Below, piece by piece: positions 12,701 to 53,079 of a DNA stretch of 64,000 bases (within the stretch, counting starts at the first letter, position 1; each line of letters begins with the position of its first letter). Below the pieces are notes generated by a model. That model was not told the origin of the DNA. It made no database searches and saw only the letters and a list, made by a program, of their open reading frames with translations. A program made the translations under genes and the position numbers. This DNA is from Opeltia flavorubescens (taxonomy: Eukaryota > Ascomycota > Lecanoromycetes > Teloschistales > Teloschistaceae). The stretch is taken from assembly GCA_000442125.1 (NCBI GenBank), contig KE546965.1:434001-498000 (forward strand), read 5' to 3'.

Positions 12701-14784
12701 TACTAGTCAGCCGGCACTCGTACCCTGGACTGCAGCCTGCAGCTTTGCTGTACGAGCGACGTCGATATGAGCAGAAGCGGACGTAGCTTATTTCAATCTT
12801 CCTCCAAAATCCCTCAACTGGCCTGGCCTTTGATCAAAAGGAGCCATGTTTATGTGAAAACCCCGTCCGTCGGTCGCGTTAGGCAATCAGGGTCAACTCA
12901 GAGAAGATTACCCCCTTTTATCACTGCGCGGATATGCATCATGTCCGGCTCCCCTCTGACAGCAGGCCCGGTTTGGTATCGCTGGAAAAGTGATAAATGA
13001 GAATTGCTTTTTCCTACAGCCCTTGTGATTGGATGCAATGCAGCATTAGGATGATTTTCCCCGGACCTTTTCCGACCAAGTCTCATGCGACCAACTGCAC
13101 CTCCCCGTCTTGTGGACCCTTTCTGACAGACAAGTCCTCTCGAAAACGGAGAGCACTTTGACGTCTGCCAATCGTCCCATGCATGGTCCGAACGCCAACA
13201 TCAATCACGTGAATACACCATCCAATATGAACCCTTTCATCAGTCGCTGCTGTGGATTTATTGCTGTAGATCTGCTGCAGGTGTGCCGTTACGAGTTTGC
13301 CAATGGCAGTCATAAGATGTCAATCTGAATAAGAAATTTGGTGCTGTGTAAGCGGACTCGGTTGACTCGAGGATTCGGAGGATGTGTAAGCGAGCAAACG
13401 CCGCAAGCACCGTCCGTCAGACGTCGAGAGGCGTGGTCCCAAAGGCGGACGGATCAGGAAGTCGGTAAGGGGCATCTTGCCTACCAAATCCCGGGAGCCC
13501 GTATGCATGAAGGCTGCTTCCTGGGCCGGTACCGGTGATCCCTTCCATCACCCCATATCTCTTGCCGATCATGCCCAGCCAGTGGTACACCTAGGCCTGC
13601 GTTGTCGATCAGCCGGGAAGCCAATCGCCCTAAACCTTGGACCGCTTTATTGCAATCTTAGTTCCTAGATCCAATGTCCATGTCCTGTGCCAGCACACCG
13701 AGCGATCCACCACGCGTGGGCTGCTCATCAATCGTTTAGACTTCTGAGGCTCGAGCTTTGGGTTGGTCATTTTCAAGTGACCCTCCATCTTTTCACGTGT
13801 TCGTAGGATCTTCTGGATCGTCCATGGATTCCTTTCTCGGATTAGCACTAGGACCATCCCATCCCATTTCCAGGCTACAGGGCTACAGGAGGCCCGCGCC
13901 GTCATTCCTCGCCTGAAGAGTTTTCCTCCCCCCTGAGTGGGCGTTCGAAGTCCTGTGATTGCATTCCTAGCGGTGAACACTCGCACGGGACGAGCTAGCT
14001 AGCGCAAGGATAAGGTAGGGATAATTGGCGTCAAGATTCGACTGTACCGTCACTTTCACTTTCCAGGTGGCGCTTGAGCAATTCTCGACCATGGTCGTCT
14101 CTTCAGGAACCTAAAAGGCATTGTTGTGTAACCGAGATCCTGCCTAGGGTCCCGAAGACGTGCTTCTGGGTTCTTTAGCTCCCTTTAAATTTGAACGTTC
14201 TTTAGTACAACCAGACGAAGCTTTCGTCAACACGCCAGATCCCACCATCGGTGCTCGTCTCTCTGATACCTCCAGCCCGCTTTAGCGTTGGGCAATCCCA
14301 AGCCGGAACATACTTGGTTACGAGCCATCTGAAATAGAAGGGAAGCGAGTGTCTGAGTAGGTAGCACACATCGGCCAGCAGGAGCCAAGGACCACGAGCC
14401 AGCAGATGGTGATCCGCAGCCGCTACTGCCATGTGCCTGATCGTCAACAGCTTACTTTGACCACCCTAGTACCTCCTGCTGTTTCGAGAGCTTCCTGCGT
14501 CCAAGGAGGCCAAGGGAGAGGCGAGGGGGGTCCTGGTCCCCAGTATCGACGTCTGTGATTAGCACTGACATTATTGTGTCTGGCCCTTGTAAGCATGCTT
14601 TTTTCGTGGTCCGTGTTTGCTTGCGATCGTCATTCATTATTATTGCAATCCATGGTTGCTGTGTAAATGTAGAAATCTTCGTGCAAAAGGAATGTGTGGA
14701 CAGACGAAGCAGCTGGCCTGGTCTTGTTCTGTCGTTGTTTTGTTTTGTCACTATTTTGCTGACTGAGAGGGTGGCGGTGAAGAT
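9704..14784. other. 5.1-kb gene-poor interval
   Basis: No ORF here shows a recognisable family motif or joins to a neighbour with good splice signals; the longest is about 118 codons and looks random. It lies upstream of the FlbC-like regulator, so a long regulatory region or untranslated leader is possible. A CT/TG-rich stretch (14720-14760) sits just before its ATG. No tRNA, repeat array or transposon seen. Confidence 0.45.
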
Positions 14785-33372: not shown

Positions 33373-35310
33373 ATGTCCCACGCAGAAGAGGATCTCATCG
33401 ATTATTCGGACGAAGAACTCCAGACCAACGATACTGCTGGAGTGGACCCCGCAACAACAAATGGCGCAGCCAAAGCAGACGGGTTGACAGTCCCTGCCGG
33501 TACCGCAGATAAGAAGGGCAGTTATGTTGGAATGAACACGGCAGGTTTCCGAGACTTTTTGCTGAGACCCGAGCTCCTCAAAGCCATCACCGATTGCGGT
33601 TTCGAACATCCCTCGGATGGTCAGTCATAACTTTTCTCCCAAGCTCCCTACCAGAAGTATCCATGTGTCCGTCCATCCCGCAAAAAGAAGATTGGGTGTT
33701 GTGTAAGATAAGAACACATTGAAGATTCACCACCAGCGCGCATATCATAATGATAACTAGCTGAACTCTGAGAATAATGGGTTATCATGTTTTGATATNC
33801 CATTCGGCTCATTTGAACTTGAGCTGGTCCTCATCAGCTCTTCAAGGGTTGGCATTCCACCAGGGGTGTGACGTTGGGTCCTAAGTGATCCTGGTCTCAT
33901 TCAATTGAGTTCGGCGGGTCCTGCGTCTTTTGCTGGCTCGGATTATGCAGTGGTGGAGAAGGCATGAGTAACGCGGGATGGACGGACAAGACATGATCGC
34001 CGCGCATGATATTAATTGAACGTACTGGACGAAACAAGTCTAACTCGATCGCCTTCTTCACAGTCCAGCAAAAATGCATCCCACAAGCCATTCTCGGAGG
34101 CGACGTGCTCTGTCAAGCCAAATCCGGCCTCGGTAAAACGGCCGTCTTCGTTCTTACAACCTTACAGCAAGTCGAGACTGTCCCAGGAGAATGCTCGGTC
34201 CTTGTCATGTGCCACACCCGAGAACTTGCTTATCAGATCAAAAATGAATACGCCCGATTCAGCAAATATATGCCCGAAGTCAAGACGGCAGTATTTTATG
34301 GCGGTGTGCCTCCTCAGAAGGATTACGATCTGCTTGCGAACAAGGACACTCACCCGCATATCGTCGTTGGAACTCCTGGACGACTTAACATGCTGCTCCG
34401 CGACAAAAAGCTGTCATTAAGAAATATCAAAGTTTTCGTACTTGACGAGTGTGATAAGATGCTTGACCAGATTGGTAGGCTACTCCGACCTGTTTCCTGG
34501 CAACCATAGCTCATCTCCTGGTAGACATGCGCCGTGATGTGCAAGAAATCTTCCGGGCTACTCCGACACAAAAGCAAGTCATGATGTTCAGCGCCACGCT
34601 GTCGCAAGAGATCAGACCTATCTGCAGAAAGTTCATGCAAAATCCATCTGAGCTGTTCGTTGATGACGAAACAAAATTGACTTTACATGGCTTGGATCAG
34701 TACTATATCAAGCTTAGCGAATCGGAGAAGAACAGAAAGTTGAACGATCTTTTGGACACCCTGTCCTTCAATCAGGTCATCATTTTCGTCCGGAGCACAG
34801 TTCGCTGCACCGAGCTGAACAACATTCTTGTCGACTGTAACTTCCCAAGTATTGCAGTTCACTCAGGCATTGCCCAAGAGGAGCGGTAGGCGGCGCTGAT
34901 TATCAAGAGCCTGGTGGATACTCTGGCTGACAGGAGCTAGGATCAAACGATACAAAGAGTTCAAGGATTTCCAGAAACGAATTTGCGTTGCTACTGATGT
35001 ATTCGGGCGTGGCATTGACATTGAGAAGGTCAATATTGCAATCAACTACGATCTCCCAACGGATGCAGACTCCTATTTGCATCGTGTTGGCCGTGCTGGA
35101 AGATTTGGGACGAAGGGTGTCAGTATTTCTTTCGTCAGCAGTGATGAAGATCAGGAAGTTTTGAAGAATGTGGAGAAACGTTTCCAGGTTCCTCTACCGT
35201 AAGTTCATCTTTTCTTCCTACATCTTCTAATCGAATTCGGATGCTAACGAAAGGTCCATAGTGAATACCCTGCCGAAGGCATTGATTCAAACAGATACAT
35301 GGGAAACTGA
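33373..35310 (+). CDS. SUB2: DEAD-box RNA helicase Sub2 (UAP56)
   Basis: Five exons: 33373-33619, 34064-34474, 34525-34885, 34941-35198, 35262-35310; 441 aa, the standard length. Motifs seen: Q-motif region [17 protein letters not shown], Walker [14 protein letters not shown]-equivalent [21 protein letters not shown] box, SAT (FSATL), and in the second domain [16 protein letters not shown] and [14 protein letters not shown] rather than DEAD is the Sub2/UAP56 signature. The protein works in spliceosome assembly and, with TREX, in mRNA export. The first intron is 444 bp, far longer than the others here (50-63 bp), and contains an N at 33799. It sits between RPR2 and a WBP11-like splicing gene. 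Confidence 0.97.
33620..34063 (+). other. Long first intron of SUB2
   Basis: 444-bp intron with donor GTCAGT, a CTAAC branch near 34041 and acceptor TTCACAG. Other introns in the window are mostly 46-108 bp. I see no coding stretch in it; a C/D snoRNA was looked for but no convincing paired C and D boxes were found. Confidence 0.8.
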
Positions 35311-38287: not shown

Positions 38288-40089
38288 TCAAGCACCAATA
38301 GGATTAGTACAGCTGAAACCAGACACCGCTGTGGTGGCATATGCATCGATCAAACCTACAACAGCCGAATAGATACCCAGTATCGCGGTAGCAAGCGATC
38401 CCAAGAAGAATATCAGATTGAATGCATTCAAGGCGGCATTCTTACGCAAGCCTCGCATCCAACGAGACATACCCTGGTCGTGCCGGATAGTCCTGCCACT
38501 CGATACATCGAAGCCTTCACCTTCTTGAATGGCGTCCCGTTGAGCACAGTGGAAGAGCATGAGGAAGGGAGGGAACGTGTAGGAAAATTGGAGTATACAG
38601 AGGGCCGCGATGAGTCCTGACAAATTAGAAACCGAGGGTATTGCCGCTGCCACAACAAAAGCAAGTCCCCAGTAGATTGGAACGAATGCCACCCAGAGTA
38701 GCTTTCCAGACTTCTGCGCCAAGGACGGAAATCCGAATAAATCCATAAAAACATTGCTGTAGATGACCTTGATGCCGATGTTGCCATACAGGAGAGCCGC
38801 AATAAGGGTCGATACTAGTGCCATGGAATTGACTGCCGTCTGCCACGTGTAGGGGGACACGCCCTGATAGTTGGGATTGATTGTAAATTGCCCCTGTTGG
38901 GAGTAAACGAGGAACCCAAAAATCATGTAGCAGAAGAAGATGAACGTTTGTGCAACCACCATGCCTTTCCAGAAATCGTACGGTCTCCTCATCTCAGCCA
39001 TAAACTCCACGAATAACATAGCACCACCGTATGAGTAGACCGCCTGCATCAGGCCGACCACTTGCCCTTCGAAGTCGACGCCATCAGGCGGGCCTGCAGT
39101 TGTTATCTTCGGTCCCTTGGGCGCGTTGTTATTCGCCAAAGCGGCATCGTAATTAGGGTCTGAATGGAATATGACCGCCGTCGTGATGATGAGGATCAGC
39201 ACGTTTAACCAGATCGCAAAATGGGCCAGCCATCCAAGCCTTGCCAACGTTCGAATCTGGCCTATGATTGCTCCGGCAATGGCCCATACCAAGCATAAGA
39301 CGATGAAACAAACAGAACCTTTACTGATCTGCGACAGCCCTTGGCCATTTTGGATGATGATGATGCCGACATTGAACAGCAATTGGACGGACTGGAAGAT
39401 GTTTATGGTATGCCTGGCAACTTTCCCAGCAACTCGATACGCAATGTCTCCAAATGATCGGAGAGGGTAGCGATCGGAATCTAGTTGTAAGAACATCTTC
39501 CAAAGCAGAAAGCCCCCGCTAAAAAGGTCAGGTAAGTGATGAAAACTTTGTTCGTATTGGTACAACCTACTAAGCAGCAAAGCAGCCGAAGACAAAGTAC
39601 AGCACTGCTGCTGGCCCGTATCCCATCTGGCTGAAAGCCCAACTTTGAACGCATCAGTGACGAAACGCAATCCCTTGAAGAATGTGCAACTTACGCCGTC
39701 GTATACGGCCCGAGGATATCTGTGGTGATAAGGTAAAAAACGGCACCCCAAGTTGCAGTACGTAGAGCTCGCGAAGCCTGAACGTATTCTTCCTCAGGAA
39801 CATCGTGCCACGGCTGTGCTACATTTAGACCATCGCCCTCTTTCCCGTCCCCTGCTGCATGGTTCTCTACGGCAACAGTCCCTTTTCGAAATTGTGTGAA
39901 CTTCGAGATGAAACTCGGCGCTGGGGTCGGGGCAGCGTCCGATACTTCACTTGGGTGGGTACGAGACACTTGGGCGTAGTAGTAATACTCCTCGAATGTT
40001 ACATTTGGATCGTGCAATCTCGTGGGTGGAGCCCTAGGAGTACCGCTTTCGCCATCATGGCTGATGGTTTTGAGCTCGCTCTTCTCCAT
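38288..40089 (-). CDS. mtr: N-system neutral amino acid permease Mtr (AAAP family)
   Basis: Three exons: 40089-39695, 39642-39571 and 39518-38288, introns 52 and 52 bp, 565 aa. Joins restore GPYTTAWAFSQMGYGP and CFAAYGGFLLWKMFLQLDSD. About eleven hydrophobic segments follow, with blocks RYPLRSFGDIAYRVAG, QSVQLLFNVGIIIIQNGQGL, MQAVYSYGGAMLFVEFMAEM-RRP and LLYGNIGIKVIYSNVF typical of Aa_trans permeases like Neurospora Mtr. The cytosolic N-terminus is long and polar. It should import neutral aliphatic and aromatic amino acids by proton symport at the plasma membrane. ATG 40089 (MEKSELKT) is preferred; an in-frame ATG at 40209 would add 40 poorly conserved-looking residues. Confidence 0.93.
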
Positions 40090-42202: not shown

Positions 42203-43327
42203 ATGGGTTCCAGCTCCAAAAAGAAAAAGGACAAGAATAAAGACTTTCAAGTATTTTCGATCTCCGTCATGCAAGCTATGCTGAATGCTCCTGCAGAAAC
42301 CGAAACTGAAAGTCGGGAAAGCGCGACCTAAGCCTACGAATATCACCGATACGAGCTTTAGGTCAAAGGGTAGGCTTTTTCAACTTCACACTCCGCAATG
42401 GATACCGTTCCTGATAGCTCTCCAGCTATTACTCTAAATCAGCAATCTCTTGCTACTACTGCGCCCTCAGCGACAAGCCAGTTTTCACATCATGTGTCAT
42501 TATTGACTTCCCGTACCGACAGCCAGCGCAGAGATTCATTGAGCTATTTGACGACTGCGATCTCGACGAGGCCTACGAATGCTCCGCTTCCGCAACCCGT
42601 GAGCGTGTTGCTCCCTAGGGTTCTACCCCTTACATTGGATGAAAGTCATGGTGTCCGAATGCAGCTCTTGAAGCTTCTACGTGCTCTGCCTCGTACCGAC
42701 GTTGAAGACCATGTTGAGCAAGTCCTCGTATACATCCGAGCTGGAATCACCCACTTGGCAACCGACATTCGCAGCACTACTATGGACATGCTGGCGTGGG
42801 CACTGGAGTGCAGAGGCCATGCTCTTGTATCTTGTGCTGGTGGATGGGTGAAAACGCTCAAATCACTGATGGCGATGCAAGGATGGCCAATGGAATCTAG
42901 TCCTGGGGGATGGTCATCGGGCGAAGCATTGTTTGGGAAGTCTGACCATGAAGATAAGGCTTTGGTCAAAAGCTTGAATGTTATGGCAGTATTTCTCCGC
43001 ATCGGGTTCGAGGATTCTCCGGAGGAAGACAGTGCAGACGACCCCGTCCAAGGGTGGCCGTTGACAGACTTTGCAGCACACCGAATCTCAAAACGAACGA
43101 ACTGTTTCGCCCATCTGAATCTATTCGGACCGCCTCGAGACTATGAGACACAGATCTACGAAGATCGAGAGGATCGTCAAAAAATATTCAGTGAAAGATT
43201 TCAAGAACCCATGGGACTCGGACTGGAAACAGCTAAGAAGAAAGGCGGCGAATTAGGACGTGCAGCTGCAAGAGTGCAAAAAGTTATTATTGAAGGCATG
43301 AAAGACTATGAGGAAGATGAGTATTAA
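42203..43327 (+). CDS. IPI1: Pre-rRNA processing protein Ipi1 (TEX10 family)
   Basis: Three exons: 42203-42250, 42297-42369 and 42426-43327, introns 46 and 56 bp, 340 aa. The first exon encodes the basic leader MGSSSKKKKDKNKDFQ, joined to KPKLKVGKARPKPTNITDTS and then AITLNQQSLATTAPS. The following HEAT-like helical region (HHVSLLTSRTDSQRRDSLSY, VRMQLLKLLRAL, CAGGWVKTLKSLMAMQGW) is the Ipi1 core. In yeast Ipi1 forms the Rix1 complex with Ipi3 and Rix1 for ITS2 processing and 60S maturation in the nucleus. Starting at the later ATG (42398) would lose the conserved lysine-rich N-terminus, so the spliced start is preferred. Confidence 0.93.
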
Positions 43328-43769: not shown

Positions 43770-44536
43770 ATGGATCAAGCAAAGCTAGCCAAGATGCAGC
43801 AGTCGGTGCGAATTGGTACGTCCCCACTCGGTCGTCATATAGGCTACCTCCCTCCTACCCCTACTGAAACCAGAGCTGATAGAGATTCACAGGGTAAGCT
43901 TCATCACTCTATACCCCTCGCACACTTCCCCAAACTACCCTCCAGCATTACAATATCCCATCGTCATCGCGCAATCCCTCGCAACAATCCTCTCTTCGAA
44001 CATCATACTAACAGAAGCTCTCGACACTTAGGGGTAAGGGCACACCTAGGAGAAAGCAGAAGAAAGTCCACAAATCCTCCGGCACAGACGACAAGAAGCT
44101 CCAGACCTCCCTCAAGAAACTCAATGTCCAACCCATCCAAGCCATTGAGGAGGTAAACATGTTCAAGGAAGATGGGAATGTCATTCATTTCGCCGCTCCC
44201 AAAGGTATCTCTTAATCTATTTCACTTCTGCACCCACAAATACACCTCCCACCCCTTCAACAAGGCAACACTGGCAGCTAATCCATACATGTAGTACACG
44301 CCGCCGTCCCCTCCAACACCTTCGCCGTCTACGGCAACGGAGAAGACAAAGAACTCACGGAGCTCGTCCCCGGTATCCTCAACCAACTCGGTCCCGACAG
44401 CCTGGCCAGCCTGAGGAAACTGGCAGAAAGCTACCAGAGCTTGCAGAAGAAAGAAGGTGGAGATGAGAACAAAGATGACGATGATGATATCCCAGATCTA
44501 GTGGCGGGGGAGAATTTCGAAAGCAAGGTTGAATGA
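43770..44536 (+). CDS. EGD1: Nascent polypeptide-associated complex subunit beta (NAC-beta)
   Basis: Coding parts: 43770-43815, a probable one-base exon at 43893, 44032-44204 and 44295-44536; 153 aa. The sequence reads [32 protein letters not shown], the NAC domain [35 protein letters not shown], and an acidic end [16 protein letters not shown]. RRKxKK is the ribosome-binding motif. With Egd2 the protein shields nascent chains at the ribosome exit. Direct joining of 43815 to 44032 gives the wrong frame; adding the single G between ...TTCACAG (43886-43892) and GTAAGC (43894) restores [11 protein letters not shown]. It is convergent with the cryptochrome gene, 259 bp apart. Confidence 0.92.
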
Positions 44537-48859: not shown

Positions 48860-49770
48860 CTTTTGGATATGTGAACTTGGTAACGATCGGTCCCGAAATC
48901 TATAGTGGTACCGAAGCAATACTGTGCAGCTCCTTTGATTCGGCGAGAGCTAGTATTGAGGTGATGGTATGTAAGTAATAGACTAGCACATCTGTGATGG
49001 AGAAAAAAAGACTAGATTTCCTATGTCTTTATACATGTTTCTTCGCAAAATTTTCCGAGAATTGCATGGTTGAAGAATGACGTTCTGGTCCCTTACGCCC
49101 GTGTTATCGTCGGGGTATCAACGGCCGAGCACATCAACCTAGTACTATTTGGGCACCAAAATCGGCACGCAATGCATTGCGCGAATGAGATATCGATAAC
49201 CGAAATTCACTGCATTACTAGATCAGGGTATAAGAGCTTTTAATTTATTATTCTACTGCACATTGAATTAACGGTTACTGGGGTGTCTGCTCAGTTCCTG
49301 CTTTCGTTGGTGATGGCATCATCTTCTCGCACGCCATCATTTTTGAGTGAGCGATAAAGCCGTATTCGTAAGAACACCAAACCTCATCACCAGGGATCGA
49401 TTGTTTCGCAAACGAAAAAACCAGACAGGGTATTCCGAGGTAGACTTCTAGATTGAATGCCAAAACAGTGATGCAAGGATATTAGGAGATTACCTAGGAT
49501 TTTGACTTTGATTCACCTGGCATTACTCGTTTATTGCTGTCAAAGAGAAGGGGTATTTCCTTTATCTGTGAGATTATTCGTCATTCAATCCGGTGCTTCG
49601 AATACGCTGACGGAAGTAATGGTATCTAAAATCCTCAAATTTCTTGACGATATCATGAGTCTAAGCGACCACGAATGGGTATCTTCATGCAGATGACTAA
49701 CTCCAAGACTGATCCTCCAGTACTCCTGGCTCCATCTTGAGATCCGTATATATTGCCATACTATGCGATC
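48860..49770. other. Intergenic 0.9 kb
   Basis: SDR promoter side and 3' side of the reductase gene. Short ORFs only. Confidence 0.45.
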
Positions 49771-51965
49771 TTAGTATTCGAATGACTCGGCATGAAAGTA
49801 GATCCCCTGAGCGCCAGTTCCTTTATGCACTGCCCTTTCGTTACTTAAACTCACCACGCTCCGCTGGACTCCATCAACAAGACCCTGCGGTCCACATACC
49901 ACGACCGCACTTTCACCAAGCGCTTGCTCCAACATCTTACGAATGAGGCTATGAGGCTGGGGCCGGCCGGATAGCATTGCAATCTCTTGATAGGTTGATA
50001 GCCTGACCTCCTGATGGTAGCTGGAAAGCTTCTGTGAGGCTTGGGTACCCATTAATGTTTGCTTGACAATTTCAATCTTGTCGGCGTTGCAGTTGCAGCA
50101 ACATTGTTCTTGCAAATCGAGGGCCGCTCCCTCATCTTCAATGGTCCTCCTGCAGCAGCAGGTCCCGTTTGGTCCACAACTTGTAATGGCACCAACTTGA
50201 CTTTGAAAACCCGATGTGACGGAATTGATCGAGATGGCATCGCTGTTCTCTTTCTCAACGTATCCTCGAATTTTCTGCGCCACAGTCTTCTCTTCCAATT
50301 TTCCATCCAAGACTTCGAAAGGCTTTTGCTCGCCTTGTCTCCCACGGTCAGCACCTGAGATGCCGTCGCAGGTTACATAAATGCTCATGTCAACTTCAAA
50401 ATGTGACCCTTCACTTTTCAGTTGTCGGACATCGTCTGAAACCGTTTCTAATTGAGGTTTGAACCAATCATACTGCTCTCGTGACTTGATTGCCCAAATG
50501 AAGCGGATGTACCGAGTCGCAGCCCCTTGAAACGCAAATGCCGGATGGCAGCACGAGTCTCTTCGATTATGGGCGTTCTTCGACCAACATGATACGATAT
50601 CTCGCATCAGCGGTACTGTAAAGGTCGCTCCGCTGCTCCCAGCGATCAGAAAGACGCTATCGAACTGTCGCAACGGTCGGATACGTCCATACGGACCCTC
50701 AAGGATGAGACTGCGTGTAGGGAGCTGATATGACTCTCCATTCGCTGTCGGAAGGCTTTGCGAGTTCTGGGCGTGACGGAAAAAGCGCTTGGTGCCCCCA
50801 GATTTAGACTTAACCAGAAATTCCATTCTTCCGTCCTCGGGTATAGATGCAATTGTGAATGGATGTGCCTGAAGAGGTGCGAGGGCGTGGCATGTTAAGA
50901 AAACATGCTGTCCAGCTTTCCAATGCATGGGTGGATTCTCGATTGCGATTCGTGTGGTATTCAGACTCAGAGGCTGGAACGTCGCTCGAGAGCACATTGC
51001 CCCCGACCCTCTAGTTCGTCGGTTCAATAACGGAACATTCACAAATAGAGTTACAATGGCTCTAATTGCCCGGTCGAACGCATAAAAACCTATTGGGAGC
51101 CAGACCCAAACCTTGACCTCTTGGGGGAAATGTAGATAGACAGCTGCAAGGAAACCGACAGATGTGACAATATGTTGCACCACGAAAAACTCGTAATTCC
51201 ATCTGCGGAATGGAAACAAGGAGCTAAGAACGATCCACAAGAGGATACACCATGCGGCAAATCCTCTTTGGGTGATAGGATCGGTGGTTAACTTGACTTT
51301 GATGTAGTCGTAGCGAGCCCAATTGACGAACCAGAAGCCCATGTGTATGGTCACAGTAAGAAACAGTATCCGCGAAACCCACCTATGTAACCAATTCAGT
51401 CTCTCATAGCTTGTTCCAGTCAACCATCCAATGATGTTTCGTTTCCCGGAGAGGAGGACAATGAGTGGCAGCTGCGCAGCGGCGACGAAACCGGTACGAT
51501 AGCCTATGTCCTCCCACTTCCACTGATCTCCAGGATCAAGCTTATAAAAGCAGAGCACGACAATGAGAATGAGTTCAGCTACGATTATTGACATTCGCCC
51601 AAGGGTTGGGGAGGTCCAGCGAAATTTCTCGGAGGTAATTAACGGATAGCTGAAGTATGAAAGCTCCCGAGCAGTGGCATAGAGAGTCGCAAATATTGAT
51701 GGCAGCAGAGCTCGAGGCTTGGCTGGCAACGAGTCTTTACAACTGGCGGCTGACATCCTGGGCTCGTTCAGCGAATAGGATGCAATATTTTGTGATCATA
51801 AACGCACCTCTGTCTGTAAAGAATCTTATTATACAAATTGACCAACGTTGCGCATCCTATGGCTGTTCCAATCACGGCCCAGTAAAATTTTTGTACATCG
51901 ACGAGGCTTGGGACGCCGTCGCCCATGGACATTCCGCCCATTCCATGACCCATTCCATGACTCAT
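49771..51965 (-). CDS. Ferric/cupric metalloreductase (FRE family) with Met/His-rich N-terminus
   Basis: Two exons, 51965-51808 and 51757-49771, intron 50 bp, 714 aa. It opens with a Met/His-rich stretch (MSHGMGHGMGGMSMGDG) before a first membrane helix. The heme domain has paired histidines in LHRWVSRILFLTVTIHMGFW and VVQHIVTSVGFLAAVYLH. FAD binding is marked by HPFTIASIPEDG and NADPH binding by LILEGPYGR, LIAGSSGATFTVPL and the C-terminal VVVCGPQGLVDGV. A Cys-rich insert (SCGPNGTCCCRR and QCCCNCN) lies in the NADPH domain around residues 590-625. The enzyme passes electrons across the plasma membrane to reduce Fe(III) or Cu(II) outside. It is head-to-head with a CTR gene (490 bp), which favours a copper role. 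Confidence 0.95.
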
Positions 51966-52455: not shown

Positions 52456-53079
52456 ATGTCTCATGACATGTCATCAATGTCTGCTTCCTCAAGTACGCCG
52501 ATGCCCATGTCAAGCATGGCGTCGGCTTTCTATTCATCAACCTCCACGACCCTTTTCTTCTCATCTTGGACGCCTGGAAGCACAGGCTCATACGCTGGAA
52601 CATGCATTTTCCTTATCTTGCTCGCTGCGATATTTCGAGGCCTTGCCGCTGGGAAACATGCGCTGGAGCACCGATGGCTGGATGAGGAGCTCAACCGAAG
52701 ATACGTCACCGTCAGAGGCAAACCCACCGAAGCCGAGAGGATCAAATCGGACAGTGAGAGCAAGAATGCGACATTGATCACGGAGCGTGGAGTGGAAGAG
52801 CATGTTAAAGTGGTCAGGAAGGCGCGTCGGACCATCACGCCTTGGAGACTGAGCATAGATTTGCCCAGAGCCGCATATGCAACCGTAATGGCCGGAGTCG
52901 GTTATCTGCTGTAAGTAAATTGAAATCGCAAAGAGAGTCAATCGGAATCCTAATCCCTTCATAGGATGCTGGCTGTGATGACAATGAATGTAGGATACTT
53001 CTTATCTATTCTGGGCGGTACTTTTCTCGGCGAGCTTGCCCTGGGGAGATACACACAATTAGAGGAGCATGGCCATTGA
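52456..53079 (+). CDS. CTR-family copper transporter
   Basis: Two exons, 52456-52910 and 52965-53079, intron 54 bp, 189 aa. The N-terminus is Met-rich (MSHDMSSMS, STPMPMSSMAS). Three membrane helices follow: around TGSYAGTCIFLILLAAIFRG, then AYATVMAGVGYLLMLAVMTM, then GYFLSILGGTFLGELALG. The MLAVM and MTMNVGYF segment fits the MxxxM selectivity motif of TM2 and GGTFLG the GxxxG packing motif of TM3. CTR proteins form trimers that let Cu(I) into the cytosol, at the plasma membrane or vacuole; size does not decide which. It is divergent from the metalloreductase and 668 bp upstream of a BIM1-like gene in the same direction. Confidence 0.95.

Follow-up and report, generated by a model that had tools for sequence, protein, structure and literature searches.

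Our analysis indicates that EGD1 very probably carries a constitutive exon of one nucleotide, G43893, placed between two ordinary U2-type introns that would be spliced out in succession. The gene lies at 43770-44536 on the + strand of the 64 kb stretch of DNA analysed here (the window), and its spliced product of 153 amino acids is, as judged from its sequence, the beta subunit of the nascent polypeptide-associated complex (NAC), known as EGD1 in yeast and BTF3 in animals. Residues 36-92 of this protein form a NAC domain (Pfam PF01849; E = 1.2e-23), residues 1-149 of the 153 match BTF3 chains in the PDB, and residues 1-73 align with BTF3 without a gap, VRIGGKGT included, in four of the five PDB sequences found, the fifth being a chain of 31 residues. 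The product thus combines the NAC domain with the BTF3-like N-terminal VRIGGKGT segment by which a beta-NAC (BTF3) is recognized. The parts of the gene are as follows.

43770..43815, + strand: EGD1 exon 1, 46 nt, ending ATT G, with 15 residues and base 1 of the Gly16 codon
43816..43892, + strand: intron 1, 77 nt, phase 1, with GTACGT donor, GCTGAT branch motif at 43875-43880 and CACAG acceptor
43893..43893, + strand: predicted single-nucleotide exon G, the middle base of the Gly16 codon GGG
43894..44031, + strand: intron 2, 138 nt, phase 2, with GTAAGC donor, TACTAAC branch motif at 44006-44012 and CTTAG acceptor
44032..44204, + strand: next EGD1 exon, with base 3 of the Gly16 codon, then GKGTPRRK... 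to AAPK
44205..44294, + strand: last EGD1 intron, 90 nt, GTATCT ... GCTAAT ... TGTAG
44295..44536, + strand: last EGD1 exon with the stop codon

Direct joining of exon 1 to the exon at 44032 loses the reading frame, as a first-pass annotation of this locus had stated, and runs into a stop after 56 residues, and the inclusion of G43893 gives the open frame of 153 amino acids. We enumerated 104 frame-restoring solutions, 12 with one intron and 92 with two, using GT or GC as first donors, GT as second donors and AG as acceptors, with donors at 43790-43950, acceptors at 43830-44045 and introns of at least 40 nt. The exact VRIGGKGT segment comes from one solution of the 104, the pair of introns 43816-43892 and 43894-44031 around G43893, which also holds the top score among the two-intron solutions (16.7, with the runner-up at 11.8, on general fungal splice weights that were preset rather than trained and that were likewise used in the gene finder, the intron scoring and the chance test). 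In the searched span no single intron with GT-AG or GC-AG ends joins exon 1 to 44032 with VRIGGKGT preserved, and the annotation's proposal that one G restores the conserved segment is therefore not only sound but describes the sole GT/GC-AG solution in that span with this property. One base stands between an AG and a GT, complete introns lie on both sides of it, and the frame and the conserved protein need exactly this base, which is the arrangement expected of a single-nucleotide exon.

A single intron with other boundaries would restore the frame without a one-base exon, and we regard this as highly improbable. Among the 12 single-intron solutions, the GTCCCC donor at 43820, raised as a rival by the first-pass annotation, is alone in leaving exon 1 whole while adding one residue, and it gives an open frame of 154 residues that reads RIGTGKGT; each of the remaining 11 either removes part of the conserved segment or inserts more than one residue. 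This candidate fares poorly on closer inspection, however, as GTCCCC scores below all 31 donors of our reference introns and the added Thr falls within VRIGGKGT, where the alignment with BTF3 has no gap and no such residue. The frame is likewise restored by donors at 43802 (GTCGGT) and 43806 (GTGCGA), whose scores are milder than that of GTCCCC, but they lose or replace four to five residues and destroy SVRIG. Options of 215 nt with GT-TA or TA-AG ends, derived by hand from the sequence and outside the scripted enumeration, can be added to this group, and they are weakened by the fact that such ends are very rare among spliceosomal introns. All introns of this kind measure 209-236 nt, longer than each of the 65 other introns in the listed gene models. 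The break in frame on direct joining of the outer exons could also be real, as in a decayed or frameshifted copy of EGD1, yet every other exon is open, the match of the product to BTF3 reaches residue 149 of 153 and the splice signals are intact, leaving this explanation with a negligible probability.

The signals on either side of G43893 are those of ordinary introns. Scored against 31 reference introns, intron 1 has a donor that equals or exceeds 15 of them and an acceptor with branch that equals or exceeds 22, and the corresponding values for intron 2 are 18 and 30, placing the donors and acceptors of both flanking introns inside the reference range. The last EGD1 intron has a weak donor, which scores at or above four of the 31. 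These reference introns are script predictions, hand-picked from 65 introns that lie outside EGD1 in the listed gene models (30 of at least 240 nt, out of 32 in total), and a homology check covers the three introns of SUB2, two of which are among the 31. The earlier description of a lone G at 43893 between introns of 77 and 138 bp with full signals consequently stands with its coordinates, except that the TACTAAC motif, which had been placed at 44008-44014, is found at 44006-44012. A homology-free gene-finder script, built on the codon usage of the window and general fungal splice weights and penalising long introns, chose the same three EGD1 introns with the G43893 exon included. This call alone is not proof, since two more exons of at most 5 nt occur in the 32 models of the script; one, at 39531/39532, has a length of 0 nt, the other is a terminal piece of 1 nt at 14165, and both belong to models on the strand opposite to family-supported genes. 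A principle stated in the excerpted part of PMC6616335 makes the two-intron reading the expected one.

The main rival to the one-base exon is an assembly or sequencing error, in which one base would be missing from the GGGG run at 44031-44034 and a single ordinary intron would extend over 43816-44031. We consider this unlikely, though it is the alternative that deserves most weight. The start of the exon lies within four consecutive G, a context in which sequencing easily errs by one base, the outer splice sites are good at both ends, and the window contains 100 runs of exactly four G together with two ambiguous bases (2438 and 33799). Against it stands first the length of such an intron, which at 216 nt is twice that of the longest reference intron. 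The reference introns have a median of 62 nt and a maximum of 108 nt (n=31), and the longest of all 65 non-EGD1 introns, to which the 34 dropped from the reference set belong, is 132 nt, although it must be borne in mind that the script penalised length. Intron 2, at 138 nt, also exceeds all 65, which counts against the reading with a one-base exon. Secondly, a full set of branch, acceptor and donor would have to lie exactly one base apart by chance. When the 216-nt interior was shuffled 20,000 times with its dinucleotides preserved, an AG-N-GT of equal quality arose once (60 times at a loose threshold), and across both strands of the 64 kb window G43893 is the one site at the observed quality, with nine sites, G43893 included, at the loose threshold. 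Finally, SUB2, one other conserved gene in the window, aligns without gaps with yeast Sub2 over 359 residues that run through its three called introns. An assembly error, as put forward in the first-pass annotation, hence keeps a small share of the probability, burdened by its need for a 216-nt intron that holds an extra branch, acceptor and donor by chance.

Several features of the surroundings may be recorded alongside these results. The branch motifs, the short introns and the gene content of the window are, in our judgement, those of a filamentous ascomycete. The exon after intron 2 begins AG|GG|GTAAGG (44030-44039), so that the Gly-Lys codons of GGKG resemble a donor two bases past the acceptor; this site is a loose-threshold match in the AG-N-GT scan and is possibly a decoy. 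The next gene upstream of EGD1, on the same strand and with 442 bp from stop to start, codes for a protein with an Ipi1_N domain (Rix1 complex, 60S maturation; 42285-43327). A ferric reductase gene (49653-51965, - strand) stands head to head with a Ctr copper transporter gene (52456-53079, + strand) at a distance of 490 bp, and the two are perhaps co-regulated for metal uptake. In the SUB2/DDX39B helicase gene (34006-35310) the match leaves out the first 19 residues of the script model, and the true 5' exons are probably to be found further upstream. Searches of the window for RNA families and tRNAs returned none, and searches with NAC beta residues 1-73 and with a C-terminal stretch of 48 amino acids returned no relatives in genomic and viral contig collections, neither of which is a fungal genome collection.

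Splicing through G43893 in the cell would proceed, we propose, by two separate canonical reactions. The two U2-type introns flanking G43893, with their full signals, would each be defined on its own, as is usual for introns in fungi. Introns 1 and 2 could not be removed simultaneously, since the acceptor of the one and the donor of the other are one base apart. An argument that two spliceosomes are unable to sit together at such a site has likewise been made for APC11, according to an excerpt of PMC4674806. The 77-nt intron 1 would most likely be the first to leave, and its removal would rebuild the exon end ...ATTGG in front of GTAAGC, after which the 138-nt intron 2 would be excised; the reverse order would yield an identical mRNA. 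A 9-nt exon of potato invertase, cited in the same excerpt of PMC4674806, counts against the order with intron 1 first, as there the second flanking intron left first. In the mature transcript codon 16 would be assembled as G|G|G, with three exons contributing a base each, and the conserved segment would be uninterrupted. The first-pass annotation had remarked that stepwise splicing through this point would look the same, which is correct, and we would regard stepwise removal as the likely mechanism of the one-base exon rather than as a competing structure.

Wrongly or incompletely spliced forms would be closed by early stops and presumably lost. With intron 1 alone removed the in-frame codon next to RIG is TAA, so this splicing intermediate would be closed at once, with the stop after residue 16 when intron 2 alone is retained. 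If intron 1 alone stays in, the stop comes after 82 residues, and if both introns do, after 128. It could be imagined that EGD1 genes throughout a fungal lineage conserve the one-base exon, and that it acts as a built-in control that ties the level of NAC to splicing capacity, with full-length NAC beta made from the twice-spliced transcript only and with skipping or intron retention ending in an early stop; we hold this to be unlikely and mention it as speculation.

As to how such an exon may have arisen, an excerpt of PMC12940212 contains a rescue model (Nelson and Syed) for the CYP621A gene of Fusarium, in which one base is lost beside an intron and a cryptic AGGGT is adopted. A similar origin is plausible for EGD1, where one base could have been lost beside the intron border and the frame restored through a cryptic AGGGT within the intron, and the model fits this locus because the exon at 44032 starts in a run of G. 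An origin of intron 2 by tandem duplication, suggested by the similarity of the junctions AGGGTAAGC and AGGGGTAAGG, was considered separately and was not supported by shuffle tests or by a repeat search. For intron 2 compared with the exon, 12 of 300 plain shuffles reached the observed score; the comparison of intron 1 with intron 2 gave 59 of 300 and that around the two junctions 219 of 300. Dinucleotide shuffles with the shared anchor left out did so in 361 and 173 of 2000 cases for the downstream part under two scorings, in 1135, 293 and 781 of 2000 for upstream parts of 30, 48 and 60 nt, in 1508 of 2000 when the intron interiors were compared and in 892 of 2000 with the 40 nt on the donor side. 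The repeat search returned one 22-nt pair at 73 percent, away from the junctions.

One-nucleotide exons are already known but very rare, and the EGD1 locus would be a further member of this small group. The first-pass annotation was right in calling them extremely rare, yet the kind has been published for plant APC11 and VPS55 and for Fusarium CYP621A; a one-nucleotide exon in EGD1 is not described in the open-access literature searched. By the excerpted texts, the single-nucleotide exon A333 of Arabidopsis APC11 was confirmed by cDNA with mutated constructs (PMC4674806), and the 1-nt microexon of plant VPS55 was confirmed by RT-PCR (PMC8831610). The predicted EGD1 exon resembles these in being a single nucleotide between two introns that is required for the frame and missed by annotation, and differs in that they are found in plants and in other genes. 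In mitochondria, a one-base exon lies between two group II introns in the rnl gene of Ophiostoma (excerpt of PMC12308204), and a one-nucleotide exon is reported in placozoan cox1 (PMC5436844). These too place a single base between two introns, but they are organellar, and the introns of Ophiostoma are self-splicing group II introns that use no spliceosome. A further paper deals with a microexon in Trichoderma Xlr2 (PMC11121469).

Two kinds of stepwise intron removal come close to the EGD1 arrangement. Recursive splicing at zero-length exons, as named in the excerpt of PMC4674806, likewise sets an acceptor beside a donor and removes the intron stepwise, but such sites add no base to the mRNA, whereas the EGD1 site would add a base that the frame requires. 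We rejected a zero-length recursive splice site at this locus, as one exonic G stands between the acceptor AG and the donor GT. Stwintrons (spliceosomal twin introns), in which one intron is nested inside the splice signal of another, are known in ascomycetes, and the [D1,2] type described in excerpts of PMC9024468 and PMC12403724 resembles EGD1 in that two successive canonical reactions, under intron definition alike, remove what appears to be one long intron. In a [D1,2] stwintron, however, the inner intron splits the outer donor and a T is needed right after the internal AG, while in EGD1 the donors, branches and acceptors of both introns are uninterrupted, GG follows, and the introns are complete and one exonic base apart. 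A true stwintron is thus a most improbable description of this locus. In our reading, intron 1 sits between exon positions -2 and -1, just outside the donor, which would make the EGD1 arrangement a neighbour of the [D1,2] type without being a member of it. With its predicted one-base exon, the EGD1 locus shows why gene predictors may fail there, and it offers a compact substrate for testing the minimal distance between acceptor and donor under intron definition.

Among the closest known systems is the one-nucleotide exon in Fusarium CYP621A, published in 2026, which the excerpt of PMC12940212 calls the first in a fungal gene. There the sequence reads AGGGT, with the base as the second letter of a glycine codon; 18 RNA reads are shown for the exon, one of them with intron sequence according to the methods. 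Both cases concern a fungal nuclear gene with AG-G-GT, a passage from phase 1 to phase 2 and a base that takes the central position in a glycine codon of a conserved motif. CYP621A is, unlike EGD1, a P450 gene with RNA reads, 20 Fusarium orthologues and an intervening span of 139 nt in F. graminearum; on the side of EGD1 stand a chaperone gene, an arrangement of 77 + 1 + 138 nt and an exon predicted from sequence. The shared AG-G-GT and mid-glycine pattern hints at a general route to such exons, in which the loss of a base beside an intron is followed by rescue through a cryptic site. If confirmed, EGD1 would, within the open-access literature searched, join CYP621A as the second nuclear gene of a fungus known to have such an exon, and would extend the phenomenon from a P450 gene to a conserved chaperone gene.
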